Assembly: GCF_003399635.1 (NCBI RefSeq) | Contig: NZ_NBXB01000045.1 | Span: 1-64,000, forward strand | DNA from: Subtercola boreus | GTDB taxonomy: Bacteria > Actinomycetota > Actinomycetes > Actinomycetales > Microbacteriaceae | Reading direction: 5' to 3' | Length of the DNA stretch: 64,000 bases | Program-made: the position numbers and the translations under genes | Part shown: positions 1 through 44,695 of the stretch, one piece after another | How positions within the stretch are numbered: the stretch's first letter is position 1 | Layout of the letters: every line of letters begins with the position of its first letter | Notes under the pieces: generated by a model | Told to the model about the DNA's origin: nothing | Database searches by the model: none | What the model saw: only the letters and a program-made list of their open reading frames with translations

Positions 1-281
1 GATCCCCGCCTGATGCGCCCACTTGTAGCACGTGATCCTCACCAACCCGAGCTCTTTCGCGACCTTCGACACGTTGCCAGCTTCAGCTGGCGGAAGAACT
101 CGGCCTTTTCCTCCGCTGTGTACGACCGGCTCTTCGCCCGCGGAGTGGAGATATTCGCCTCGCGCCGCCACCGATAGCACGCGTCCACGCTCACACCGAG
201 TTCGGCAGCAACAGCACGAATCGTACCCCCACGATCCAACCGCCGAAAAAACTCTTCCCGCGCCTTCGCCTTGTACTGCAC
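1..281 (-). pseudogene. Transposase N-terminal helix-turn-helix fragment
   Basis: Reading leftwards from a GTG at 281, the translation gives two tandem helix-turn-helix repeats. The first contains RAVAAELGVSVDACYRW and the second, after a one-base frame change near 80-85, contains SKVAKELGLVRITCYKW. This double-HTH layout is the DNA-binding front end of an insertion-sequence transposase. The catalytic part lies beyond the window edge or is lost. The frame change says the gene is broken. The exact IS family (IS30-like or IS3 OrfA-like) cannot be settled from this piece. Confidence 0.6.
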
Positions 282-312
282 ATTCTCTAAACCCCTCGGT
301 CGACCGACCCTC

Positions 313-616
313 GCCCAATACACCTCCGCTGACGTCGAGCGGTGGGCAACCCGAAACGGCGCCACGTTGTCGTGTGGTGCCACCGGGGTCTGCTGGGACA
401 ACGCAGCCGCTGAATCGTTTTTCGCAACGTTGAAGAACGAGATGTACTGCCGAACAGTGTTCCCGACCAGAGCCGAAGCGCGAACCCGCTGTCGTGGAGC
501 ACATCGAGGTGTACTACAACCGGAAACGGCTGCACTCAACCCTCGGCTGCCTCACGCCCCTAGAGGCCCACCGGGCAGCCAAACAGAACTACACCGACGA
601 GACCCACGCGGCGTAA
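313..616 (+). pseudogene. IS3-family transposase OrfB, C-terminal fragment
   Basis: The reading frame from about 313 carries the C-terminal end of an IS3-type integrase-core transposase. It contains CGATGVCWDNAAAESFFATL, in which the Glu of AESFF is the last residue of the DDE triad. After a frame change near 495 it continues as the typical YYNRKRLHSTLG tail and ends at TAA 614-616. The first two catalytic Asp residues are missing, so this is a dead remnant. A terminal inverted-repeat-like stretch (TGACACTGCCCA) follows near 645-657 and probably marks the element's end. It abuts the oppositely oriented transposase fragment at 1-281, so two elements appear nested or joined here. Confidence 0.75.
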
Positions 617-755
617 CAACCACAAAACCCAGGTCCAAGAAACTTGACACTGCCCAGTATTGAGAAACTCCACCACTCAGCGGGACGTGACCAAAGCGTT
701 GCTGAAAACGGACTGTTTCGGAGGATGCCGGAAAGCATGGTGGAGGGGAGGGCGT

Positions 756-2021
756 TTAGCTTGTTGCCGTGGCCAGGTGCGATCGAACCTGAACGGCGGT
801 GGCCTTCGGGTTCTGGGGTTGCGGAAGTGCCTGCAACGCGAATGAATTGATGGCGCCCGGCCGGAAGATGAGGCACTCTGTGGATCCGCCGAACTGGAAG
901 TAACCCAGCTCGGCGCCCTTCGCCAGATGGGCCCCCGGCGTTACCGCGCCGTCGAGGATGCAGGAGGACACCTCGATCATTCCGACGGCGACAACGGCCA
1001 CGAGTCCGATGGCGGGGTTGTCCGCCTGGATGAGGATGATCGCGCGCGCTGAGACGTGTGCCAGGTAGCTTTCCGAGTTCTGCGGCTCGACTGCGTCCGC
1101 GCCTTCAGAGTCCGCTTCCGAAAAGTACGTTCCGGGTTCGACGAACGCCCGCACAACAGTGCCAGCGACAGGGCTATGCCACCGGTGGTAGTTCAACGCG
1201 CTAAGGAACGCCTGGTATACGGTGCCGCCGACGAAGTCATCGACGGCGGGATCGTTTGCGAGAATGTCCGCCAATGAGTACGGCTGGCTTTTTATCCAAA
1301 AACGATCTCGCCGTTGCACCCCCGTACTGATCCGGTACGGGGTCGATTCGCACGAGCTGACGATGACAGAGTCGTCGTCAGCTTCGGCGACAGGGCGGGA
1401 GACATCGGTGAGGCGACGGGTGAAGAAGTCGTTCCACGACGCGAACCCCCAATACTCGTCGGCCGGGTCGTGCTGGTAGTCGCCGATCCCGACGGCACGG
1501 ACCGCCGCATCGCTCTTCCAGCCCTGCGGAGAATTGGTGATGACGTACCGGGAGGCCGGACTGCTGAGGAACTCGCCCCAGGCCTGAAGGACCTTCCGGA
1601 ACATGTCGTTGATCCGGGGGTCACGGTACGCCGCAAATCCTGCCGGGGTGCCCATGGTCCAGTCCAGGATCGCGGTCAGCGGGGTCGTGACCATGCCCCC
1701 GTCACTGAACTCCGGAGCCGTCGTCAACACTTCATCGATCAGCAGAAGCAGCTGGTCGACGCTTTTCAGGTGACGTGTCCGGTATTTGCTGTTCCGCGGA
1801 ACTTGGTCGATCATCTCCGTGAGATACAGGCGCACCACCGGATCGGAGTCGATCAGCGCCTGAAACTCGGTGATGACCGGGTGCAGCGGCGCCCCGTCCC
1901 GGCGGGCATCCACTCGCGCCTGATGGCCTTCCAGCCAGGTCTCGAGGTCATCCTGGTTCGAGGGAAGCCACCCGTTCCGGCGCTTGTGATCAGACGGGAA
2001 CGAAGCAGCAGAAGAGGTCAT
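756..2021 (-). CDS. Phosphatidylserine decarboxylase-like pyruvoyl-dependent decarboxylase
   Basis: The 421-residue protein belongs to the phosphatidylserine decarboxylase superfamily. These enzymes cleave themselves at a serine to form a pyruvoyl cofactor and then decarboxylate an amino-acid head group. The self-processing site is seen as ELGYFQFGGSTECLIF, with the pyruvoyl-forming Ser near residue 380, close to the C terminus. A long N-terminal domain (about residues 1-190) with FRKVLQAWGEFLSSP and YWGFASWNDFFTRR is typical of the large soluble PSD-like branch, which includes the fungal tryptophan decarboxylase PsiD, rather than of membrane Psd. No membrane segment is evident. The substrate may therefore be a free aromatic or other amino acid rather than a lipid, but this cannot be decided here. 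It lies 100 bp downstream of, and on the same strand as, the broken rhodopsin gene. Confidence 0.85.
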   Translation of the reverse strand: MTSSAASFPSDHKRRNGWLPSNQDDLETWLEGHQARVDARRDGAPLHPVITEFQALIDSDPVVRLYLTEMIDQVPRNSKYRTRHLKSVDQLLLLIDEVLTTAPEFSDGGMVTTPLTAILDWTMGTPAGFAAYRDPRINDMFRKVLQAWGEFLSSPASRYVITNSPQGWKSDAAVRAVGIGDYQHDPADEYWGFASWNDFFTRRLTDVSRPVAEADDDSVIVSSCESTPYRISTGVQRRDRFWIKSQPYSLADILANDPAVDDFVGGTVYQAFLSALNYHRWHSPVAGTVVRAFVEPGTYFSEADSEGADAVEPQNSESYLAHVSARAIILIQADNPAIGLVAVVAVGMIEVSSCILDGAVTPGAHLAKGAELGYFQFGGSTECLIFRPGAINSFALQALPQPQNPKATAVQVRSHLATATS

Positions 2022-2120
2022 GGTTCGACACTACTCACGTTACGAACACCCAACCCAGCGGCGGCCCAGTCGTCCCAGCCGGATCCAGACTGCCGCAGCC
2101 CAGTTCCTGAAAGGCGTGCC

Positions 2121-2981
2121 TCATCGGGGCCTCAGCTGGCTCCCGGCGGACGAGATCCAGATCGATTCAGGGTGGTCGTTGTAGCCGGCGCGCACATCTT
2201 CAGCGGTCCATGGCTTCGCGACCCGGTGGATCTGGGTCGAGAATCCGAGTTTCACGACGACATCGGCGACCGTGAACGTGAACGTGATCAGGATCATGGC
2301 CGTGATCGTTCCGCTAGCACCGATCAACGGTATGAAATAGGCCACCGGGTAGATGAACCACCCGCCAAGGAGTGTGATCGCCGCTCGTTTCAGCAGAGCG
2401 TGTGATTCCGGGGTGAGCGTCGACAGTGAAAGCCTGACCGCGCGGACCAGCACGACACTTGCGACAACCCAGGAGACAGCGCTGATTTACGCCCAGATGA
2501 TGAACTCGGCGGCGTTGGTTCCATCGTCTATAACCATGGAACCAAGGAATCCGCAGAAGACCATCGCGAACGATGCAAAGACGGCGACTGCTTGATCGCG
2601 TCGGGCCTGCCGCCCACCGACAGCGCAGACGGCGAGGAGCTCGATGCAGAGCAGCGGAACGCTAACGCTCCACTCCATGTATCGTGCGGCGAAGATGTTG
2701 ACGGCGTTGTCGTTCGGTGTCCAGACGACGCCGTCATGGTCGTAACTGGTCAGGAACGTGACAAGGATCAGGAGGTGGGAACCGAACGCGACCGCAAGCA
2801 TCGCGAGCCGCGCGGTGACCGCAGAACGATACCGTGACCCGATTTCGTTGCGGGTGACAGCTGTGCGGATCAGCCCGGCCAGGAACGCGAGAGCTGCGAC
2901 GACCAGGACGTAGAAGACTAGCTGGCGTTCGGCTTGGGTGAGTGTTGCGCCCCAGGCGACACTAACGCAGTTGTTGCGCAA
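2121..2981 (-). pseudogene. Microbial rhodopsin with an in-frame TAA stop (CryoRhodopsin-like)
   Basis: The frame from TTG 2981 (GAAGGA box 5 nt upstream) to the stop at 2121 encodes a 7-helix retinal protein of 286 codons. Codon 165 (2489-2487) is TAA and the frame is identical on both sides. Helix C reads RYMEWSVSVPLLCIELL, placing Glu103, Ser107 and Glu114 at the positions of bacteriorhodopsin Asp85, Thr89 and Asp96. Helix G reads ADVVVKLGF, with Asp240 and the retinal-binding Lys244. Helix B carries Arg58 (TARLAML). From memory, a buried helix-B Arg plus an E-S-E triplet is the signature of CryoRhodopsins (R57, E102, S106, E113 in CryoR1), matching here with an offset of one. The stop falls at the start of helix E, so a terminated product would lack helices E-G and the retinal Lys. 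It could be a nonsense mutation, a sequencing error or read-through. Confidence 0.85.
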
Positions 2982-3252
2982 TGCGATCCTTCGTTCCGGG
3001 CTCAGCGGTGAAGTACATACCGCCGCCGCTGTTGGCTGATTCCATCAGAACATCGATCCATGCCCGGTTCAGTGCGGGCGCACGGCTACCGAAGAACCGG
3101 TAGTAAGCCCGAAGCACGATCGAGCATGGCGGTGTTCGCGTCGGATGTTGTCCGCTGTGAGTAACTCGTCCACTTTTTTGAAAGCGCGTCGATCTTCGAC
3201 CAAGTAGCTCCGAAGTTTTCAAGGTGCGAATTCAACGTCGTAAACTCCCTTC

Positions 3253-4449
3253 ATGTATTCCGAAGGCGCTGAACCGCAAAAACGCCGGATCAAGCCCGGG
3301 TCACAAAGTGCGTTGAAGGCTTTCAATCAGCGGAGCGTCACTCAACGGCTCCTCGGCAGCGCCTCACTTACTCAGGCCGAACTGTCGCGGGCGACCGGCC
3401 TGTCTACGGCCAGCATTTCGAACATCGTGCGGGCATTGGTGCAGGATGGCATCGCTGAAACGTCGCCGACAATCAGCTCCGGCCGTCGAGCTCTTCTCGT
3501 GCGTCTCTCAAACAACGGAGCGGTTTCCGTCGGCATCGACTTCGGCCGAAGTCACGTTCGGATTGTCATCGTCACTCTCGACTATCGGATCGTGGCCGAA
3601 CAGACCCTTTCCCTCGAAATCCGTTATAGCGCCCTGCATGCCCTCTCGTTGGCAGCCGAGCGACTCGATGCCATGCTCTGCGAGTTTCACATCCCACGCA
3701 CGGCGGTGCTCGGCGTGGGTGTCGGGATCCCGGGCCCGATCAACCTGCGGTCGCAGACCGTCATTCACGGTAACGTGCTTCCCGAATGGATCGGTGTGTC
3801 GGTCTCCGATATTGAAAACCATATGAGATTTCCCGTGGTCATCGACAACGATGCGAATCTCGGTGCACTGTGCGAAGTAACGTGGGGACCGCACAGTTCG
3901 ACCGAGAATCTCATTTTTATCAAGGTTGGTACAGGTATTGGCGCCGGCTTGATTATCAATGGCAGGCAGTTCAAGGGTGCTCTGGGCCTCAGCGGTGAGG
4001 TCGGTCATATTCCGACAAGCGAACACGGGCTACTCTGTCGTTGCGGTAATCGTGGATGCCTGGAGACTGTCGCGTCGACCAGAATCATGATCGAGCGCCT
4101 CAGCCTAAGCGAGCACCCGAGCAGCACGACAGCCGACATTGTGAGGCTTGCTCTGGACGGAGACAGCGAGACCCGCCGAGTCGTCGAAGACGCTGGCTTC
4201 GCAATCGGGCGGATGGCCGCGATTCTTTCGGATGTTCTCAATCCACACGCGGTCGTTATCGGTGGACCCCTGAGCGCCATGGGCGAGGTGTTCCTCGAGC
4301 CCATTCGCCGCGGTTTGAACCAGTATGCGATGCCGCTCATCTCCGAAACCACCACGGTGACCGCTTCGAGCTTCGGCGATCGAGCGGAGGCGCTGGGTGC
4401 GGCCGCTCTTGTACTGAGCCAGCAGGACATCCATCCGTTCGTCGTCTGA
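3253..4449 (+). CDS. ROK-family transcriptional regulator
   Basis: The 398-residue protein has an N-terminal winged helix (about 20-80; LTQAELSRATGLSTASISNIV) and a ROK sugar-kinase-like domain. The phosphate-binding start is SVGIDFGRSHVRI, followed by GVGIPGPI and IDNDANLGAL. The ROK zinc motif is CRCGNRGCLE (Cys262, Cys264, Cys269), with a nearby His in GEVGHIP. This is the XylR/NagC type of repressor that senses a sugar or sugar phosphate. It lies just upstream of, and on the same strand as, a sugar ABC transporter operon and probably controls it. The gene is divergent from the rhodopsin gene. Confidence 0.9.
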   Translation: MYSEGAEPQKRRIKPGSQSALKAFNQRSVTQRLLGSASLTQAELSRATGLSTASISNIVRALVQDGIAETSPTISSGRRALLVRLSNNGAVSVGIDFGRSHVRIVIVTLDYRIVAEQTLSLEIRYSALHALSLAAERLDAMLCEFHIPRTAVLGVGVGIPGPINLRSQTVIHGNVLPEWIGVSVSDIENHMRFPVVIDNDANLGALCEVTWGPHSSTENLIFIKVGTGIGAGLIINGRQFKGALGLSGEVGHIPTSEHGLLCRCGNRGCLETVASTRIMIERLSLSEHPSSTTADIVRLALDGDSETRRVVEDAGFAIGRMAAILSDVLNPHAVVIGGPLSAMGEVFLEPIRRGLNQYAMPLISETTTVTASSFGDRAEALGAAALVLSQQDIHPFVV

Positions 4450-4500
4450 ACCGGCAATTCGGTGTCCTGAGGTTCGTTACCGATTCGATGCGTTCATAAC

Positions 4501-4529
4501 TTGACCGCAACATCTTCTACGCGTAATTT
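4501..4529 (+). promoter_or_regulatory. Candidate sigma-70-type promoter of the sugar ABC operon
   Basis: TTGACC (4501-4506) and TAATTT (4524-4529) are separated by exactly 17 nt, a near-consensus housekeeping promoter. It lies about 50 nt upstream of the first ABC gene, in the gap after the ROK regulator. The gap gives room for a ROK operator, but no clear palindrome stands out. Confidence 0.55.
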
Positions 4530-4580
4530 GATCCTGTCGGCCACCAGGTCAACACACTGTTGTGAGGTCAAGGAGTGCAT

Positions 4581-6158
4581 ATGGTGCGGCAAGACGATCC
4601 GCGGCCGGCGTTCTCGTCCGATCCCATCATTCTTGAAATGCGCTCGATCACGAAAGAGTTCCCTGGTGTCAAGGCACTCTCGGATGTGTCTCTGACTGTG
4701 CGGCCGAACGAGATCCATGCGATCTGCGGAGAGAACGGTGCGGGCAAGTCAACTCTCATGAAGGTTCTTTCCGGCGTGTACCCGTACGGCACGTACACCG
4801 GCACGATCACTTTCCAGAACGAGGAGTGTCGGTTCAAGGACATCAAGTCCAGCGAGAATGCCGGCATCGTGATCATTCACCAGGAGCTCGCGCTCATCCC
4901 GGAGCTGTCCATCACCGAGAACATCTTCCTCGGCAATGAGCCGACCAGGTTCGGCTCCATCGACTGGCCGCAGGCGAAGCGACGCGCGATCGAACTGCTC
5001 GCTCGAGTGGGTCTCGAAGACGATCCCGACACTCAGATCAAGAACATCGGGGTGGGCAAGCAGCAGCTCGTCGAGATAGCGAAGGCACTCAACAAGTCGG
5101 TGAAGCTGCTCATCCTCGACGAGCCGACGGCCGCGCTGAACGAAACGGACTCACAGCACCTGCTCGACCTGATCCGTGGACTCAAATCCAAAGGTGTCAG
5201 CTCAATCATGATCTCGCACAAACTGAACGAGATCGAACAGGTGGCTGACTCGATCACAATCATCCGTGACGGCAAGACCATCGAGACCCTCAACGTGAAG
5301 GCCGACGGAGTCAACGAAGACCGGATCATCCGCGGCATGGTGGGGCGCACACTCGAAAACCGCTTCCCAGACCGCCACCCCACGATCGGCGAGGTCTTCT
5401 TCGAGGTCAAGAACTGGGTGGTGCAGCATCCGCAAGTCACCGAGCGACTGGTAGTCAAAGACTCCAGCTTCACCGTCCGACGGGGCGAAGTCGTCGGATT
5501 CGCCGGGCTGATGGGTGCCGGGCGAACGGAGCTCGCAATGAGCCTCTTCGGGCGCTCATACGGCACCTTCATCTCTGGCCAGGTCTTCAAAGACGGCAAA
5601 CAGATCCAATTGCGGAACGTGACCGAGGCCATCGACCACGGTCTCGCTTACGTGAGTGAAGACCGCAAAGCGCTCGGGCTGAACCTGCTCGACGACATCA
5701 AGCGCTCCATTGTTTCAGCGAAGCTGTCAAAGATCTCCCGCGCCGATGTCGTCAACGACGTCGATGAATACCAGGTCTCTGAGAGCTACCGTCGGAGCCT
5801 GCGCATCAAGACACCGACCGTCAACGAAGGAGTCAGCACGTTGTCGGGCGGCAACCAGCAGAAAGTCGTTCTCGCCAAATGGATGTTCACCGACCCCGAC
5901 CTCCTTATTCTCGACGAGCCCACCCGGGGTATCGACGTGGGTGCAAAGGCCGAGATCTATGGCATCATCCGCGACCTCGCCGCGCAGGGAAAGGGGATCA
6001 TCATGATCTCCTCTGAACTGCCGGAACTGCTTGGCGTCTCCGATCGTATCTACACGATCTTCGAAGGCACCATTACGAACGACATCCTGGCCTCGCAGGC
6101 GGACCCTGAAACCCTGATGCGGAGCATGACATCGACCAAAAGGAAGGTACTGAGCTGA
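4581..6158 (+). CDS. Sugar ABC transporter ATP-binding protein (XylG/GguA/MmsA type)
   Basis: The 525-residue protein carries two ABC ATPase domains in tandem, the arrangement of carbohydrate importers such as XylG, RbsA and GguA. The N half has Walker [11 protein letters not shown]-loop region [11 protein letters not shown] and Walker [12 protein letters not shown]. The C half has a degenerate Walker A (GLMGAGRTE), a full [15 protein letters not shown] signature and [19 protein letters not shown] 4581 is preferred to the in-frame GTG 4575 because AAGGAG (4570-4575) lies 5 nt before it. The gene overlaps the permease by one base (TGATG), so they are co-translated. Confidence 0.92.
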
Positions 6159-7543
6159 TGACCGTCGGGCCGCAAACCACCGAAACGTCTCGTTTCAAGA
6201 TCACCGATATCAAGAAGGTCTTCGGATCGGGGCAGTCGAATCTGCGTCAATTCGGAATCCTCTTCAGCCTGATCGCGATCATCGCCCTGTTCCAGGTTCT
6301 GACGAACGGTCTCACCCTGTCGCCCGGTAACCTGATCAACCTCGTGAGCCAGTACGCCTACATCCTGATTCTCGCGATCGGCATGGTGATGGTCATCATC
6401 GCCGGCCACATCGACCTCTCCGTCGGATCGGTCGCCGCGTTCGTGGGCATCGTGGTGGCATCGGCGATGGCGGACTGGGGCCTGCCTTGGCCACTCGGCA
6501 TCGTTCTCGGCCTCGTCGTCGGCGCGGCCATCGGCGCCTGGCAGGGACTGTGGGTTGCCTACGTCGGGGTGCCCGCCTTCATTGTCACCTTGGCTGGCAT
6601 GCTCATCTTCCGCGGCGGCAACCAGCTGATCGGCAACGCCAACACTATTGCCGTTCCGGAGGGCTTCACCTCCATCGGTGCCGGTTACCTGCCAGAGGTC
6701 GGCCCGAACACGGGGTACAACAACCTGACCCTTTTGGTCGGCCTAGCGCTCTCCCTCGCCGTAATCATCTCGGAATGGCGTTCGCGTCGCACCCAACGCA
6801 GCATGGGATCCGTGCCTGCCCCGGTCTGGGTCAGTCTCGTCAAGGTCATCGTCCTCGTTTTCGTCATCGGTTACGCCGCAGTGCTCTTCGCCAGCGGCCG
6901 AGTCGGAACCAGCCTGCCGATCTCGGGCATCATCCTCGGTGTGCTTGTGCTGATCTACGCTTTCATCACCCGAAACACCATCTTCGGTCGCCACATCTAC
7001 GCGGTCGGTGGCAACAAACACGCCGCCGAGCTCTCCGGCGTGAATTCCCGGCGGGTGAACTTCCTGGTGATGATGAACATGTCGATCCTTGCAGCTCTCG
7101 CGGGAATGATCTTCGTCGCCCGCTCGCAGGCCTCCGGCCCGCAAGACGGTCTCGGTTGGGAACTCGATGCCATTGCAGCCGTGTTCATCGGTGGCGCAGC
7201 GGTCTCGGGCGGTATCGGCACGGTCGCTGGATCCATCATCGGTGGACTTGTTATGGCAGTGCTGAACAATGGCCTTCAGTTGCTCGGCGTCGGATCCGAC
7301 CGCGTGCAAATCATCAAGGGCCTCGTTCTTCTTATTGCCGTCGGCCTCGATGTCTGGAACAAGACACAGGGTCGTCCGTCCATTTCGGGCCTCCTGACAA
7401 GGCGGTTCGGTAGTACCAAGCCGGCTGCGCCGGTGCAGTTCGAAGCCCCCCAGATCGAGACCATCTCCGAAGCGCCCGAGAAAGTCTTGCCGAATGGCGG
7501 GACACCTGATTCCGCCCGTCCGGGGGCCGTCACCCGCAACTGA
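6158..7543 (+). CDS. Sugar ABC transporter permease (XylH/GguB/MmsB type)
   Basis: The 461-residue integral membrane protein is the transmembrane subunit of a branched-chain-permease-like sugar importer. Helices begin at about residue 30 (FGILFSLIAIIALFQVL). The family segment AGHIDLSVGSVAAFVG is present, as is the cytoplasmic EAA-like loop region AVGGNKHAAELSGV. It starts on the stop codon of the ATPase gene. A Pro/Ala-rich soluble tail of about 45 residues follows the last helix. Confidence 0.92.
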   Translation: MTVGPQTTETSRFKITDIKKVFGSGQSNLRQFGILFSLIAIIALFQVLTNGLTLSPGNLINLVSQYAYILILAIGMVMVIIAGHIDLSVGSVAAFVGIVVASAMADWGLPWPLGIVLGLVVGAAIGAWQGLWVAYVGVPAFIVTLAGMLIFRGGNQLIGNANTIAVPEGFTSIGAGYLPEVGPNTGYNNLTLLVGLALSLAVIISEWRSRRTQRSMGSVPAPVWVSLVKVIVLVFVIGYAAVLFASGRVGTSLPISGIILGVLVLIYAFITRNTIFGRHIYAVGGNKHAAELSGVNSRRVNFLVMMNMSILAALAGMIFVARSQASGPQDGLGWELDAIAAVFIGGAAVSGGIGTVAGSIIGGLVMAVLNNGLQLLGVGSDRVQIIKGLVLLIAVGLDVWNKTQGRPSISGLLTRRFGSTKPAAPVQFEAPQIETISEAPEKVLPNGGTPDSARPGAVTRN

Positions 7544-7643
7544 CGGGGCCGTGGCCTCGATGCCGCAGCCCGATCCGGCCAAAGCTGTTCTACCCCGCAA
7601 TCACGTATTCGCAATTGCACCTCACAGAGAAAGAAAGAGATCA

Positions 7644-8744
7644 ATGATGAAAAAAGTCCTTCTCGTGACCACAGCACTCGCTGCGGCCACCATGCTCGCC
7701 CTGTCGGGCTGTGCCTCCAGTGCGCGCACCGACGCCGGCTCGAGTTCCTCGGCCGCGGGTTTCCCTGCTGATGCGACCATCGGAGTCGCTCTGCCTTCGA
7801 AGACCAGTGAGAACTGGGTTCTTGCAGGTGGCCTCTTCACCGACGGCCTCAAATCGGCTGGTTTCACCGGAGACGTCCAATATGCTGGTGCCTCCACCAC
7901 GGTGAAAGATCAGCAGGACCAGATCTCATCTATGATCACCAAGGGTGCCAAGGTCGTCATCATCGGTGCTGCCGATGGTGGACAGTTGGCGACCCAGGCG
8001 AAAGCTGCGCACGACGCCGGAGCTGTCGTCATCGCCTACGACCGCCTCATCCTGAACACCCCTGACGTGGACTACTACGTTGCCTATGACAACTTCAAGG
8101 TGGGCGTGCTGCAGGGCCAGGCCCTGCTCGACGGCATGAAGGCGAAGAACCCGACTGGGCCCTACCACATCGAGCTCTTCTCGGGATCGTCCGATGACGC
8201 GAATGCACCTGTGTTCTTCAACGGCGCCATGAGTGTTCTCCAGCCCGAGATCGACAAGGGAACCGTCATTGTGACCTCGGGTCAGACTGACATCAAGCAG
8301 ACCGCGACCGCAGGCTGGAAGGCTGAGAACGCACAGAGCCGCATGGACTCGCTGCTGACCAGCACGTACGGAGCAACCCCCCTCGACGGCGTTCTCTCGC
8401 CCAACGACACTCTTGCCCGGGCGATTATCACCTCAGTGAAGGCAGCCGGCAAGCCGCTTCCGATCGTCACCGGCCAAGACTCCGAAGTCGAGTCCGTCAA
8501 GTCGATCATGGCCGGGGAGCAGTACTCGACCATCAACAAGGACACCCGCGCGCTCGTCGCCCAGGCGATCAAAATGGCCCAAGAACTACAGAAGGGCGGC
8601 ACACCCGAAACGAACGACACCAAGTCGTACAACAACGGAGTGAAGATCGTTCCCGCCTACCTCTTGGCGCCGATCATCGTGACGAAGGCGACCGCGGCGG
8701 AGGCCTACGCCAACGACCCGACACTCGAGCCACTCACCAAGTAA
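7644..8744 (+). CDS. Sugar-binding lipoprotein of the ABC importer (ChvE/XylF type)
   Basis: The 366-residue protein starts MMKKVLL and has a lipoprotein signal peptide ending LALSGC, so Cys is the lipid anchor. The mature part is a periplasmic-binding-protein fold of the ribose/xylose class. ChvE-like segments include IVIIGAADGG, VIAYDRLIL and VTGQDSEVESVKSIMAGEQYSTINKDTR. ATG 7644 is chosen because it opens the signal peptide; the frame is open further upstream but without meaning. It completes a three-gene importer for an aldose or small oligosaccharide (inference from family). The last gene before a strong terminator. Confidence 0.93.
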   Translation: MMKKVLLVTTALAAATMLALSGCASSARTDAGSSSSAAGFPADATIGVALPSKTSENWVLAGGLFTDGLKSAGFTGDVQYAGASTTVKDQQDQISSMITKGAKVVIIGAADGGQLATQAKAAHDAGAVVIAYDRLILNTPDVDYYVAYDNFKVGVLQGQALLDGMKAKNPTGPYHIELFSGSSDDANAPVFFNGAMSVLQPEIDKGTVIVTSGQTDIKQTATAGWKAENAQSRMDSLLTSTYGATPLDGVLSPNDTLARAIITSVKAAGKPLPIVTGQDSEVESVKSIMAGEQYSTINKDTRALVAQAIKMAQELQKGGTPETNDTKSYNNGVKIVPAYLLAPIIVTKATAAEAYANDPTLEPLTK

Positions 8745-8750
8745 CACCGC

Positions 8751-8792
8751 AAAAGGAGATGGCCTGCCCCAGTGGGCAGGCCATCTCCTTTT
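8751..8792 (+). terminator. Rho-independent terminator after the sugar importer
   Basis: A long perfect hairpin, AAAAGGAGATGGCCTGCC pairing with GGCAGGCCATCTCCTTTT around a short CCAGT-type loop, follows the binding-protein stop by 7 nt. The A and T runs at both ends let it work in either direction, so it can also shield the operon from minus-strand transcription. Confidence 0.9.
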
Positions 8793-8799
8793 CGCGTCC

Positions 8800-9145
8800 G
8801 GGCGCCCCATCAATAGTTGACGAACTACCTCTCGGGGGATCGTGTCCGTGTCCTTAGCGCCGGCGGCAGACCCCTCAATCACGCGATGGACATCCCTGAG
8901 CATGTGCTCTCCGTCAGGCTGGTCACCCTCGTTTGAGGGCAGGGTGTCTGTGTCAGCGTTAGTTGGCCCCGGAACGACGGCCGAAGTTGGCCCCACGCGC
9001 AACTCGCCGGGGTTCTTGTGAATGTTCCCTTGCCCAGACCCGCATGCGCCGCGATATGGGCGACTGTGGCATCGAGGTTGTTCTCGGCGAACTCCTCTTC
9101 CGCAGCCGCCAGTAGGACGTGCTGATTTCGATGAGTCGGCGGAGA
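8800..9145 (-). pseudogene. Decayed TetR-type regulator
   Basis: On the minus strand about 9140-9010 encodes an intact-looking TetR helix-turn-helix (LLAAAEEEFAENNLDATVAH then IAAHAGLGKGTF). After a frame change, the downstream part in another frame resembles a TetR C-terminal helix (HMLRDVHRVIEGSAAGAK, then PREVVRQLLM). No single frame spans both, so the gene is broken. The rest of 9145-9385 shows nothing recognisable. Confidence 0.5.
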
Positions 9146-9385
9146 ACTTTCTCTCTTGCCACGATGGCCGTTGGGAGCGTTCCTCCCAGATGAAACCGAA
9201 TCGCCGCTGCGGAACAATCCCTAGGAAACCTGTCGTATCGTTTCGAACTGACATAGGCACTCCGGGTATGGCGCTTGGTGTAAGGGATCATCTCCAAGAC
9301 GACGCGATCAACGGGCATTGACGGGCAGTCCGGGTGAGAGGACCGGCTCACTCTGAACGTCTCGCACCGGCGATGTCTCGTCGAG

Positions 9386-10393
9386 TTAGTTTGATTGGGT
9401 GGTTTGCCTGTGGATGAGCTGGAACTCTGGGATGATTTCATCCTCTTCGGGCCCGTTGCCTGCGATTCGCGCGATGAGGCGTTCGACGGCGGTTCGTGCG
9501 ATGAATGCTTTGTCCGGACAGATCGTGCTGAGTGTTGGGACGGTGAAGCGGGACTCTTCGATGTCATCCCAACCGATCAGTGCGACGCGGGCGGGGATGG
9601 AGATGCCTCGATCGGTGAGCGCTCTGATCGCTCCAATGGCGAGCAGATCGTTGAAGCAAAAGACAGCATCAATTTCCGTGCCACGGTCGAGGGCGTCTCT
9701 GATGGCGGCGTAGCCGGCCCGGCGTCCCCATTCCGCTGTGGGCAGCTGGAGTTGAGAGGTGGTGAGCCCTGCGCCCTGCATAGCTTCGGTGTAACCCTGC
9801 AGCCGGCGGGAGGCGGGGCCGAGACCGTTCGATTCGGGCAGCACTCCGAGAGCGGCAATATTTGTGCGGCCTGATGAGATAAGAAACTCGACTGCTGTTC
9901 GAGCCGCAGCGACGTTGTCGACGGAGAGATGCAGGAAGGGCCCGGGATCGATTCTCTCCCCGAGCAGAAGGGTCGGGATCGTCTGGTCATGGGTTTCGAG
10001 ATCAGCGGCAGTGAGGGCCACTGGGCTCAGGATGAGGCCGTCGATCACGGCCGAACTGTATCCGTGGAGGACGGCCAGTTCACGCTCGCGGGTGCCCCCG
10101 GTCTGATCGATGAGCAGGGTCATCCCGTGCAACTCGGCGTGTTGCTGGATCTGGTCGGCGAGTTCGGCGAAGTACGGGGCCGCGATCTCGGGAACGGCAA
10201 GCGCGATCAGTCCGCTGCGGCCGCTTCTGAGGTTCCGGGCTGCGACATTGGGCCGGTACTTCAGCTGTTTGATGGCTTTCTGCACGCGTGCCCGCGTCTC
10301 GGGTTTGACGTGCACGTACTCGTTCACCACGTTGGATACAGTTCTTTGGGATACGCCGGCGAGTTGAGCGACATCGTGCATGCTGGCGGGCAT
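9386..10393 (-). CDS. LacI-family transcriptional regulator
   Basis: The 335-residue protein starts MPASMHDVAQLAGVSQRTVS, a canonical LacI helix-turn-helix with hinge KYRPNVAARNLRSGRSG, followed by a periplasmic-binding-like sensor domain (about 62-330; SVDNVAAARTAVEFL, IGWDDIEESRFTVPTLSTI). ATG 10393 is preferred because AAGGAA lies just before it; the open frame upstream encodes no family sequence. It is the last gene on the minus strand after the sugar importer 10548-14090 and probably controls that importer and the divergent GH2/dehydrogenase pair. Confidence 0.92.
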   Translation of the reverse strand: MPASMHDVAQLAGVSQRTVSNVVNEYVHVKPETRARVQKAIKQLKYRPNVAARNLRSGRSGLIALAVPEIAAPYFAELADQIQQHAELHGMTLLIDQTGGTRERELAVLHGYSSAVIDGLILSPVALTAADLETHDQTIPTLLLGERIDPGPFLHLSVDNVAAARTAVEFLISSGRTNIAALGVLPESNGLGPASRRLQGYTEAMQGAGLTTSQLQLPTAEWGRRAGYAAIRDALDRGTEIDAVFCFNDLLAIGAIRALTDRGISIPARVALIGWDDIEESRFTVPTLSTICPDKAFIARTAVERLIARIAGNGPEEDEIIPEFQLIHRQTTQSN

Positions 10394-10497
10394 CGTATTC
10401 CTTGTAACTGGTGCGTGATCCGCGATGGTCAGGCAGGCGTGCGCTGGGCTGACACGTGGTTTAGTCAGCGTAGCTGAAGAGCGGTAGTCGACGTGAG

Positions 10498-10530
10498 TGA
10501 TCCCGGCCGTCGTTCCAACGGCCGGGATCA
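10498..10530 (-). terminator. Hairpin between the sugar importer and the lacI-type gene
   Basis: TGATCCCGGCCGT pairs perfectly with ACGGCCGGGATCA around CGTTCCA, 18 nt past the binding-protein stop. There is no T-run, so it may be a partial terminator or a transcript-stabilising stem that lowers lacI-type expression relative to the importer. Confidence 0.65.
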
Positions 10531-10547
10531 CCAGTTCATTCGAGGGA

Positions 10548-11942
10548 TTACTGGTTGAGAGCCGAGGTGATGTTCGCCTGTCCGGATTTCAACGCGTCGG
10601 AAGGAGAAGATCCCTGGAACCAGTTCGACTCGATCGCGTTTACGAGCGCTTTCGAGACGGCGGGCCAGTTCGCGATGTGGGGAATCGGTCGCGCAATTGT
10701 CAGTCCTGTGTCGGCGTAGTTCGCGCGCTGGGGTGCGGCCTTATAGGTGTCGCTATTGAGTACTGATGTGCGGGCTGAGATGTGTCCGGTGCCGAGCGCC
10801 CAGTCTTGGTCGTGAGCGTAGAGGAAGGTGATGAATTCCAGCGCCGCGCGGTACTTCACCGGGTCGGCCTGGGGCTGTACGGGAATAGTCCACGTATGAG
10901 AGTCGGCCCAGACCGCGGGGGTTCCGAAGAGGGTCGGGAAGTTGGCCGCCTTGTACGTGAATGGTGCGGTGGTGCGGTACTGGTCGACGACCCATGTGCC
11001 GTTGACGAGCATCGCGGTGTCGCCGCCGAGGAACGACTGCTGGGCGGCATCGTACGTCTGGTTACCGTCTGCGTACCCCTCGGCGAAGACCTTGTTCATG
11101 AAGTCGAGCGCGGTGGTTCCCTGCGGTGAGTCGATGGCTCCGGCGGTAGCGTCAGCGTTCAGGATGTCGCCGCCGCCCTGCTGGAGGAGACTCTCAAAGA
11201 CGTGCACGCCGAGCTGGTCGCCTGAGCGCGCCACACCCATGAAGTTCTTGCCCGTCTTCTCCTTCATGGTCTTCGCGTCTGCGAGGAATTCGTCAGCGGT
11301 CGTGGGCATGACGGGGTTGCCTGCGGCGTCGATGAGCCCTGCTTGCTTCCACAGGTCGACGTTCAGGTGCGCCAGCGCGGCGTGCACATCGAAGGGCACG
11401 GCATAGTCGGTGCCGTCGTAACCGATGGCGGTCTTCGCGGCGGGTACGGCGTCGCTGAGGTCGATGTCGGTGATCTTGGCAAGGCCGTCGGTTGGCAATA
11501 GCAGCCCGCGGCTTGCGTAATCTACGAGGCTCGAGCCGTGCATGATTGCGACGTCCGGGGGTGTGCCGCCGGCGAATGCCGAATTCAGGGTGTCGTAGTA
11601 GGAGTCCCAGGATGCTCCGCCGAGTCTTGTCACCTTGATGCCCCACTTGTTCTCGGCGTTGAACTTGTTGGTGAGCGCCGTGATCGTGGCGCACTCACCG
11701 ACGGTCGTGCTTACGTTCGTGCTGTCCCCGACCGTGTCGGAGCAGTCGCCGAAGAACCGGGCGAGGCTGATCGAGGCGCCTTGGAGCTGGGCGTCGGTGA
11801 CCGCAGAGATCGCGGCATCTGTCGAATCCGCGCCCGCTGCTGATCCGTCGCTGCTTGCTGATGAGCTGCAGCCACTGAACGCGAGAGCTGTAATGACCGG
11901 TATGGCCGCGGTGAGAGCGATTCTTCGGTGAATCTTTCGCAT
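10548..11942 (-). CDS. Extracellular sugar-binding lipoprotein (family 1)
   Basis: The 464-residue protein has a signal peptide ending ITALAFSGC, a lipobox whose Cys is the lipid anchor, followed by a Ser/Ala-rich linker. The body matches MalE-type family 1 solute-binding proteins (NKFNAENKWGIKVTRLGG, GGTPPDVAIMHGS, DTAMLVNGTWVVDQY). A strong AAAGGAG box lies 7 nt before ATG. It is the cell-surface receptor for the two permeases upstream in the same operon. No ATPase is encoded here; such systems commonly share an MsiK-like ATPase (family knowledge). Confidence 0.92.
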   Translation of the reverse strand: MRKIHRRIALTAAIPVITALAFSGCSSSASSDGSAAGADSTDAAISAVTDAQLQGASISLARFFGDCSDTVGDSTNVSTTVGECATITALTNKFNAENKWGIKVTRLGGASWDSYYDTLNSAFAGGTPPDVAIMHGSSLVDYASRGLLLPTDGLAKITDIDLSDAVPAAKTAIGYDGTDYAVPFDVHAALAHLNVDLWKQAGLIDAAGNPVMPTTADEFLADAKTMKEKTGKNFMGVARSGDQLGVHVFESLLQQGGGDILNADATAGAIDSPQGTTALDFMNKVFAEGYADGNQTYDAAQQSFLGGDTAMLVNGTWVVDQYRTTAPFTYKAANFPTLFGTPAVWADSHTWTIPVQPQADPVKYRAALEFITFLYAHDQDWALGTGHISARTSVLNSDTYKAAPQRANYADTGLTIARPIPHIANWPAVSKALVNAIESNWFQGSSPSDALKSGQANITSALNQ

Positions 11943-12057
11943 GGGATATCTCCTTTGGTGTGGGTGGTGTCTGTGTTACTTGGTGCGGATGAAAAGAGGT
12001 GCGGACGGTGGGGAAGCGCGTGGGCTGCAGCGAGGGATAGGCGAGACGGTCCGGCGC

Positions 12058-43409: not shown

Positions 43410-43483
43410 GCGGATGTAGTTCAGTGGCAGAACTTCAGCTTCCCAAGCTGATAGCGCGGGTTCGATTCCCGTCATCCGCTCCA
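43410..43483 (+). tRNA. tRNA-Gly (anticodon CCC)
   Basis: The acceptor stem GCGGATG pairs with CATCCGC. The D arm is GTTC...AAC-like, the anticodon stem TCAGC/GCTGA holds loop TTCCCAA (anticodon CCC), and the T arm is GCGGG-TTCGATT-CCCGT. The discriminator is T and CCA is encoded (43481-43483). All arms fold. It decodes GGG. It is the likely attachment gene of the prophage. Confidence 0.95.
43458..43483 (+). other. Probable attL core in the tRNA-Gly 3' end
   Basis: The integrase faces the tRNA and begins 64 bp past its CCA. By the usual rule the prophage carries a copy of the tRNA 3' half (T arm through CCA), so the crossover core should be in or near these bases. The second copy (attR) would lie beyond the window and cannot be checked. 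Confidence 0.5.
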
Positions 43484-43495
43484 GTACTGGGATTC

Positions 43496-43531
43496 AGCCC
43501 CTCTTGACCTTCGAGTCGGGAGGGGCTTTTT
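43496..43531 (+). terminator. tRNA-Gly/integrase terminator
   Basis: AGCCCCTC pairs with GAGGGGCT, followed by TTTTT. It ends the tRNA transcript and lies between the tRNA and the converging integrase gene. Confidence 0.85.
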
Positions 43532-43546
43532 CTGCTTTGTCGCTGT

Positions 43547-44695
43547 TTACTCGCTACTTTGAGCGAAGGCGTCGAGCACTGCGGCACGGTTTGGGCGCTC
43601 AAGTACTTGCTCAACGTAGTGGCGAGAGGTGACCCCCACGTCAGAATGTCCAAGCTGCTCCTTGGCGGCATCGAGGCCGTCGGTCGCTTTCAGCAGAGTG
43701 GCCACCGCCTTTCGGCATGACTTCGTCGTGATCCAAGCCACCGTCGATCCCTTGAGAGCAGATGCCCACTGAGTCCGGACATTCTCTGGCCACCTCAACG
43801 TTCCGTTTGCGGACGGAAATACCCATTCGGAGTAGGCGGCGACGCGCCTCCGAACCAACACGTCCCGAGCAAAAGAAGGCAATGCCAGAGTCCGATTCGA
43901 AGACTCGGTCTTGGGGTGCTCTTGCCGCTCAAGACCCCGGCCTGGAATGCGGGTGACTGTTGCGGATATCGTGACCCTTCCGTCGTCTATGGAGACGTCA
44001 TCCCATCGAAGCGCCAATGCCTCTCCGATCCGGCATCCCGTGGCGACGAGTACGTCGGCGAGATCGGCCAGGTCGTGAACGGAATCTCCTCGAATTCCCG
44101 GAATTCGGTCGTAAGCCTGTAACGCGGTGCGCAGGGTCCGAATGTCGTCAATGCTGGGCGCGCGAACTTCGCTTCGCTCGACCGCGGGAGGTCGCAACTC
44201 GGCAGCAGCGTTCGACTCTGCTGCGCCGTGACGAACCGCAAGCTGCAACATCCCCGCGAGCACCACGGCGAGCATGCGCGCTTGCGCGGGTCCGGACGTG
44301 GTGGCGACGCGCGTCACGAGCCGGTCTAGCCGCGGAACGGTAGCTTCCCGAATCCTTAGCGATCCGACACTTTGGTTCACATGTTTGCTGATCGTGCTCT
44401 GGTAACGAGCTACAGTAGCCGGCGCTTTTCCCGCGTCCACCACTTGCTGCATCCACTGACGCGCAAGCTCCGAAAGTGTCGATTCTCGCGTGAGATATTC
44501 AGCGCTCGGCGTCAGCCGATCCCGCAGCGCAACTCGCAATTTCTGCTCGGCGAGAGCTTCCGTCTTGGCTGAGCGCTGCGCCTTCCGAGTTACCCCATCC
44601 GAATCGCGATAGTAAGCAATTGCGGTCGGTACACCATTGAGTCGGACCCGCCTGATCTTCCCCCATGTCTCCAGAGGGAGCGGTGGCCTAGCCAT
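43547..44695 (-). CDS. int: Phage tyrosine recombinase (integrase)
   Basis: The 382-residue protein has an N-terminal arm-binding part, a core-binding SAM-like domain (about 72-155) and a catalytic domain. Active-site residues seen are Arg222 (TGCRIGEAL), Lys262 (HPKTESSNR), Arg328 in TTKSCRKAVATLL, His350 (LGHSD) and Tyr360 (RHYVE). The box-II His that normally precedes Arg by three (HxxR) is Lys325 here (KSCR), an unusual change. It points towards tRNA-Gly and should catalyse integration and excision there. The small HTH protein at 46146-46325 may be its directionality factor. Confidence 0.93.
   Translation of the reverse strand: MARPPLPLETWGKIRRVRLNGVPTAIAYYRDSDGVTRKAQRSAKTEALAEQKLRVALRDRLTPSAEYLTRESTLSELARQWMQQVVDAGKAPATVARYQSTISKHVNQSVGSLRIREATVPRLDRLVTRVATTSGPAQARMLAVVLAGMLQLAVRHGAAESNAAAELRPPAVERSEVRAPSIDDIRTLRTALQAYDRIPGIRGDSVHDLADLADVLVATGCRIGEALALRWDDVSIDDGRVTISATVTRIPGRGLERQEHPKTESSNRTLALPSFARDVLVRRRVAAYSEWVFPSANGTLRWPENVRTQWASALKGSTVAWITTKSCRKAVATLLKATDGLDAAKEQLGHSDVGVTSRHYVEQVLERPNRAAVLDAFAQSSE

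Follow-up and report, generated by a model that had tools for sequence, protein, structure and literature searches.

Near one end of the window, as we call the whole 64,000-nucleotide stretch of Subtercola boreus DNA analysed here, lies a rhodopsin gene, very probably a CryoR2-type paralogue that was inactivated recently, and the genome retains two intact CryoRhodopsins (CryoRs). It is an ordinary dying gene and not a new kind of rhodopsin.

Identification of an interrupted CryoRhodopsin gene

The minus-strand frame 2981-2121, which sits in contig C45 of a draft assembly (G000; 3.85 Mb, 97 contigs), encodes a microbial rhodopsin with a single internal stop codon, TAA at 2487-2489 (codon 165), and a terminal TGA at 2121-2123. 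Its parts are listed below, where L005 is the CryoR2 gene, L006 an intact relative and L021 a CryoR2-group fragment from genome G010.

2490..2981, minus strand: 5' part of the CryoRhodopsin gene, of 164 codons from a TTG start, covering helices A-D and the opening turns of helix E, with R58, R100, E103, S107 and E114 (from the alignment; helix limits from the predicted model)
2487..2489, minus strand: in-frame TAA (codon 165), which falls within predicted helix E (residues 157-186 of the model)
2148..2486, minus strand: rest of the frame, which runs from the remainder of helix E through helices F and G and includes D240 and K244; homology to CryoR2 extends up to HPESIWISS
2987..2991, minus strand: AAGGA, a ribosome-binding-like site ahead of the TTG start, also found in L005, L006 and L021 (alignment read by eye)

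The Pfam profile Bac_rhodopsin matched the whole frame, with X at the stop, at E=2.2e-20, the part before the stop at E=8.7e-11 and the piece from GTG 2453 onwards at E=4.3e-05 (23.5 bits, below the 24.6 cut-off). Among solved structures, CryoR2 (8r0p) was closest to the frame with X at the stop (E=8.3e-116), followed by CryoR1 (E=1.5e-80). The initial annotation had proposed a CryoRhodopsin-like protein and had assigned R58, E103, S107, E114, D240 and K244 to their codons correctly; R100 completes the seven-letter motif, RRESEDK, which is the same as that of CryoR2. Lamm et al. 2025 (PMC12227055) give RRXXXDK, with XXX being for example ESE, as the CryoR motif and RRESEDK as its form in CryoR2, and take a helix-B Arg at the position of BR T46 as a criterion for a CryoR. 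Microbacteriaceae hosts from cold habitats and a slow photocycle with a UV-absorbing state also belong to their description of the family. R58 of the window gene aligns with this Arg in both CryoR1 and CryoR2. A predicted fold with Gln at the stop (mean pLDDT 76.5, 8 sequences) compared with CryoR2 8r97 at a TM of 0.89 and an rmsd of 3.9; judging from this model, the whole frame would still be rhodopsin-like if read through, and the model is silent on tolerance of the helix-G insertion described below.

The window gene shares 67% identity with CryoR2 (Subtercola sp. AK-R2A1-2; PDB 8r0p and 8r96-8r98) over the aligned frame, along with the motif, a TTG at the same start position, which also occurs in L006, and a DUF7882 gene directly upstream that overlaps the rhodopsin start. 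In contrast to CryoR2, it is interrupted by TAA at codon 165, its helix G is longer by two residues and position 41 is Ala instead of Tyr; it is without the C-terminal tail (286 versus 327 residues), and its partner gene is cut to roughly the last third. The helix-B Arg, the Glu counter-ion and the Glu donor are common to CryoR1 (Cryobacterium levicorallinum, PDB 8r0k), which is intact, carries the motif RREAEDK and is 49-50% identical to the window gene in the fold alignment. Microbacteriaceae rhodopsins without the helix-B Arg, such as L046, L052 and L055, also have seven helices, with Asp, Ser/Thr and Glu at three motif columns, but have Ser or Gly at the R58 position and occupy neighbouring tree branches outside the R58 clade.

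CryoRhodopsins in the genus and phylogeny

Rhodopsin matches at E<=0.001 were found in 11 of 12 Subtercola genomes, and CryoR-type genes, defined as those with at least 44% identity in the genus search, all of which have the helix-B Arg, in nine of the 12. These nine genomes hold 17 CryoR-type loci, of which 15 are intact, with frames of 319-339 codons counted from the nominal start, and two are broken: the window gene and L021. The genome of the window itself keeps two of the intact genes (L002 and L003, with no internal stop and with near-complete partners) and a distant rhodopsin, L004. Across the Microbacteriaceae, 25 of 299 sampled genomes gave matches at E<=1e-20, and the helix-B Arg is absent in some of these rows. 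A profile search of further contigs with alignment A1 returned seven loci, six from Subtercola and one from Microbacteriaceae; an earlier scan of the same contigs with a single protein as query had found no relative. The six named loci, together with the agreement of L005 with CryoR2, point to Subtercola as the host genus.

A tree built from 44 rows placed the 26 rows with the helix-B Arg in one clade (support 99/99), within which the window gene grouped with L021, L006 and the CryoR2 gene at 100/100. The last of these, from genome G004, is identical by eye to the CryoR2 sequence over residues 1-277, bar the start residue. Support for pairing the window gene with L021 is low (92/70), and only 20% of the columns contain L021 residues. 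The end branch of the window gene is long (0.45, compared with 0.15 for L021 and a path of 0.19-0.22 to L006 and L005). Sequence, motif, tree and predicted fold all bear out the CryoRhodopsin-like identity, and on its sequence the gene is a CryoRhodopsin by descent, of the CryoR2 group. It has the helix-B Arg, the RRXXXDK motif and a place in the CryoR clade, and is without three features of a working CryoR: a complete seven-helix frame, an elongated conserved C terminus and a whole adjacent DUF7882 gene. Its closest full-length relatives, L005 and L006, are intact and have the Arg, so the nearest homologues are neither rhodopsins without a helix-B Arg nor genes with many stops or frameshifts, although the related L021 is itself broken.

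L021 (G010:C51:79722-80229) is 73% identical to the window gene over 66 residues, after which it stops at TAG and continues as unrelated sequence. It was inactivated in another way from the window gene and has a near-complete DUF7882 partner; it may represent a different kind of decay in a sister species, or a metagenome-assembly artefact. Three further observations concern other rhodopsins. L004, L020 and L023, in three Subtercola genomes, are distant rhodopsins (about 28% identical), and the frame adjoining them resembles what we take to be a lycopene-cyclase-type flavoprotein. In L058 (G106:C3:241044-241529), a rhodopsin of the Microbacteriaceae that lacks the helix-B Arg, homology breaks off directly behind the helix-G Asp, leaving the lysine out of frame; this may be another broken gene, or an error in the draft. 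Frondihabitans sp. PAMC 28766 has a 213 kb plasmid that encodes a rhodopsin sharing 42.6% identity with the pre-stop part of the window gene (NZ_CP014514.1, 95545-96009; hit H12).

Lesions within the rhodopsin gene

The gene had been described as intact except for the TAA, with 121 fully conserved codons downstream of it. The single in-frame stop was confirmed, but the frame carries further damage, including two lesions near its 3' end.

2271..2286, minus strand: tandem TTCACG-TTCACG, which lengthens helix G by two residues (alignment columns 233-234) just before D240
2121..2147, minus strand: eight non-homologous codons and TGA, where homology stops at IWISS and the C-terminal tail of CryoR2 and other Subtercola CryoRs is absent (from the alignment)

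Columns 233-234 are filled in the window row alone among 45; 43 other rows reach this point without residues there, and L021 ends earlier. The missing tail comprises about 50 residues in CryoR2. According to PMC12227055, the CryoR tail caps the pentamer and is proposed to contact the transducer, and CryoR1 cut at residue 263 retained its spectral properties and oligomeric state, so tail loss alone need not stop photochemistry. Neither the helix-G insertion nor the early end shifts the reading frame.

Substitutions have also accumulated. Seven of 66 invariant sites are altered in the window gene, compared with 0-4 in each of 16 other representatives in the same test, and the changes downstream of the stop at sites invariant among those representatives are F170S, L257P, R258W and D268N. 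When all sites with 85% conservation or more are scored instead, the window gene shows only a slight excess (18 of 102, compared with 15 of 110 in the CryoR2 gene and 3-14 in the others). With the majority residue among 20 outgroup CryoRs taken as consensus, off-consensus residues over the whole frame number 32 in the window gene and 11 in the CryoR2 gene (p=0.0019). This excess lies mostly after the stop (18 versus 3, p=0.0015) and is not significant before it (14 versus 8, p=0.29). The excess after the stop was seen with 19 of the 20 outgroups taken singly, the exception being L044 (9 versus 10). The downstream codons are therefore not fully conserved, given these changes, the two extra helix-G codons and the lost tail. 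Low third-position G+C was rejected as a sign of decay: the frame has 0.755 and 12 neighbouring frames are alike (0.68-0.83), with 0.86-0.87 in L002 and L003.

A truncated DUF7882 partner in variable surroundings

Upstream of the rhodopsin start, the partner gene and its own upstream region are also disrupted.

3001..3108, minus strand: what remains of the DUF7882 partner gene (the 'putative transducer'), matching profile positions 62-97 of 97 (29.7 bits, cut-off 27)
3109..3252, minus strand: unrelated sequence occupying the place of the DUF7882 first half and of the region ahead of it, reaching a divergent ROK repressor gene (from the alignment)

The remnant frame ends at 2962 and so overlaps the rhodopsin start at 2981. 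DUF7882 has been published as the 'putative transducer' of CryoRs and proposed to work together with them (PMC12227055), and a near-complete copy (at least 95 of 97 positions) lies directly upstream of the rhodopsin in all 16 other CryoR-type loci of the genus, the 15 intact ones and L021 (positions compared by eye). Among 103 DUF7882 matches in the 12 genomes, the window remnant is the sole one without the first half. The replacing sequence, 3109..3252, gave only short, weak matches in the 12 genomes, the best being 29 bases at E=0.004. A misassembly that split the unit was considered and rejected, as neither an orphan first half of a DUF7882 gene nor an orphan rhodopsin tail was found elsewhere in the draft assembly. 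No sigma-70-like site was found in 2000-3400, which is little informative given a chance expectation of 0.3.

DUF7882 occurs in 6-11 copies per genome in the 12 Subtercola genomes, including three (G005, G007 and G008) that yielded no CryoR-type gene, which makes further roles of the family besides that of CryoR partner probable.

On the left side of the unit lies a phosphatidylserine-decarboxylase gene that is matched in four of 12 genus genomes at E<=1e-30, and the left contig end (window 1-650) carries transposase-like helix-turn-helix remnants. On the right side are the ROK repressor, whose best genus match outside the window is 39% identical, and a sugar-type ABC operon. As these neighbours are only patchily matched in the genus, the rhodopsin-DUF7882 unit sits in variable surroundings. 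A plasmid origin for window 1-12000 was rejected: matches cover at most 3%, and those that could be placed fall in the sugar ABC operon. The search for repeats flanking the unit gave nothing clear; a 14-base inverted pair (1992-2005 and 2989-3002, 86% complementary) is of a size expected by chance. Elsewhere in the window, a phage-type integrase (43410-44695) adjoins a tRNA-Gly gene, and by eye the frames between it and the end of the window resemble those of a mobile element; this is perhaps an integrated element.

The gene and its operon therefore carry more than one independent lesion, as expected of a pseudogene: the stop, the helix-G duplication, the lost tail and the truncated partner. 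The last three in particular indicate a decaying gene rather than an interrupted but otherwise whole one.

Selection and the age of a probable loss

A branch codon model run on 16 of the 45 alignment rows gave an omega of 0.06 for the window branch (0.077 before the stop and 0.04 after it) against a background of 0.075, and an omega of 1 was rejected. A model with a final neutral phase fitted best with a phase of zero, with an upper bound of ~0.02 synonymous changes per codon out of about 1.1 on the branch. NG86 dS between the window gene and four relatives is 1.1-1.6, near saturation, so both the branch-model and the neutral-phase estimates are rough. The neutral evolution looked for in a pseudogene was thus not detected, which means a very recent loss or none. 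Since purifying selection acted for nearly all of the branch, any loss must be recent and, by a rough reckoning, a neutral phase within the bound leaves room for about one stop. The suggestion in the initial annotation that the stop is recent is supported by the codon model and this bound. Counting against inactivation are the low omega, the absence of a fitted neutral phase, the in-frame nature of both the insertion and the early end, and the CryoR2-like predicted fold.

A rival reading is a sequencing or assembly error at the stop, in which case the gene would yield a 286-residue CryoR2-like rhodopsin working without tail and transducer. Such an error would fit the purifying selection on both halves, the failure to detect a neutral phase, the in-frame character of the other changes within the rhodopsin, the retained AAGGA and TTG start, and the spectral properties kept by truncated CryoR1 (PMC12227055). 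The codons of relatives argue otherwise: of the 43 relatives with a codon at position 165, 39 differ from TAA at three bases, four at two and none at one. A single miscall would require TTA or TCA for a residue seen in this column (Leu or Ser), but no relative uses either codon there, and they make up only 9 (0.11%) and 64 (0.76%), respectively, of 8,422 window codons counted. In another alignment, made by eye, TAA could result from a one-base deletion and a one-base insertion near 2485-2493 together with a substitution, which also amounts to several changes. An error would moreover leave the partner truncation and the helix-G insertion, as further independent lesions, unexplained. We therefore regard an error, which had been offered as one explanation of the stop, as unlikely, and favour a genuine, recent inactivation.

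Read-through of the stop by a suppressor tRNA or by recoding, with production of the full rhodopsin, had also been suggested. The frame does carry on in phase as far as residue 286, and selection acted on it, but none of the 47 tRNA genes found has a stop-codon anticodon, and TAA ends four of 17 complete frames counted in the window and is thus an ordinary stop here. A suppressor tRNA or a reassigned TAA was rejected on these grounds. In addition, both intact CryoRs of the genome are without an internal stop, and the other lesions in gene and partner speak against a full product. Of all explanations considered, read-through appears the least credible, with a very slight chance of being correct.

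The concentration of off-consensus residues after the stop raises a further alternative, that the 164-residue upstream fragment or a two-part rhodopsin is functional, for example as a four-helix partner that joins the pentamers of intact paralogues. The separate counts suggest a contrast between the two halves, but the codon model shows none, with a low omega in both. The fragment is without K244 and most of helix E. Past the stop, the next open reading frame begins at GTG 2453, a position within predicted helix E, and the DUF7882 partner is truncated. A functional fragment or two-part protein is accordingly highly improbable, and the same small probability applies to the specific proposal that the upstream half survives as a four-helix CryoR fragment, joining and tuning the pentamers of the two intact CryoRs while the rest decays.

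The gene descends from a CryoR that evolved under purifying selection, and for the preferred reading, recent inactivation, a course of events can be proposed. The two-gene unit, placed in variable surroundings, would first have been cut at both ends, with loss of the partner start and upstream region at one end and of the rhodopsin tail at the other. Once the unit was out of use, the stop and the helix-G duplication would have followed. As it stands, the gene would encode at most a 164-residue fragment with helices A-D and no retinal lysine, so no pigment is expected.

Implications for the CryoRhodopsin family

No mention of a broken CryoR was found in the covered portions of the literature on cryorhodopsin, DUF7882, Subtercola rhodopsin or broken microbial rhodopsins, and the terms 'pseudogene' and 'stop codon' are absent from the main text of the CryoR paper (PMC12227055). 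The occurrence of a broken rhodopsin beside a broken DUF7882 gene, where all 15 intact rhodopsins have a near-complete one, provides modest genetic support for a joint function of the two proteins. L021 counts against this, as its rhodopsin is broken and its partner near-complete, so joint loss is not obligatory. The window gene also serves as a warning that surveys of CryoRs can count dead copies. Beyond the partner link and this warning, it is an ordinary decaying paralogue.
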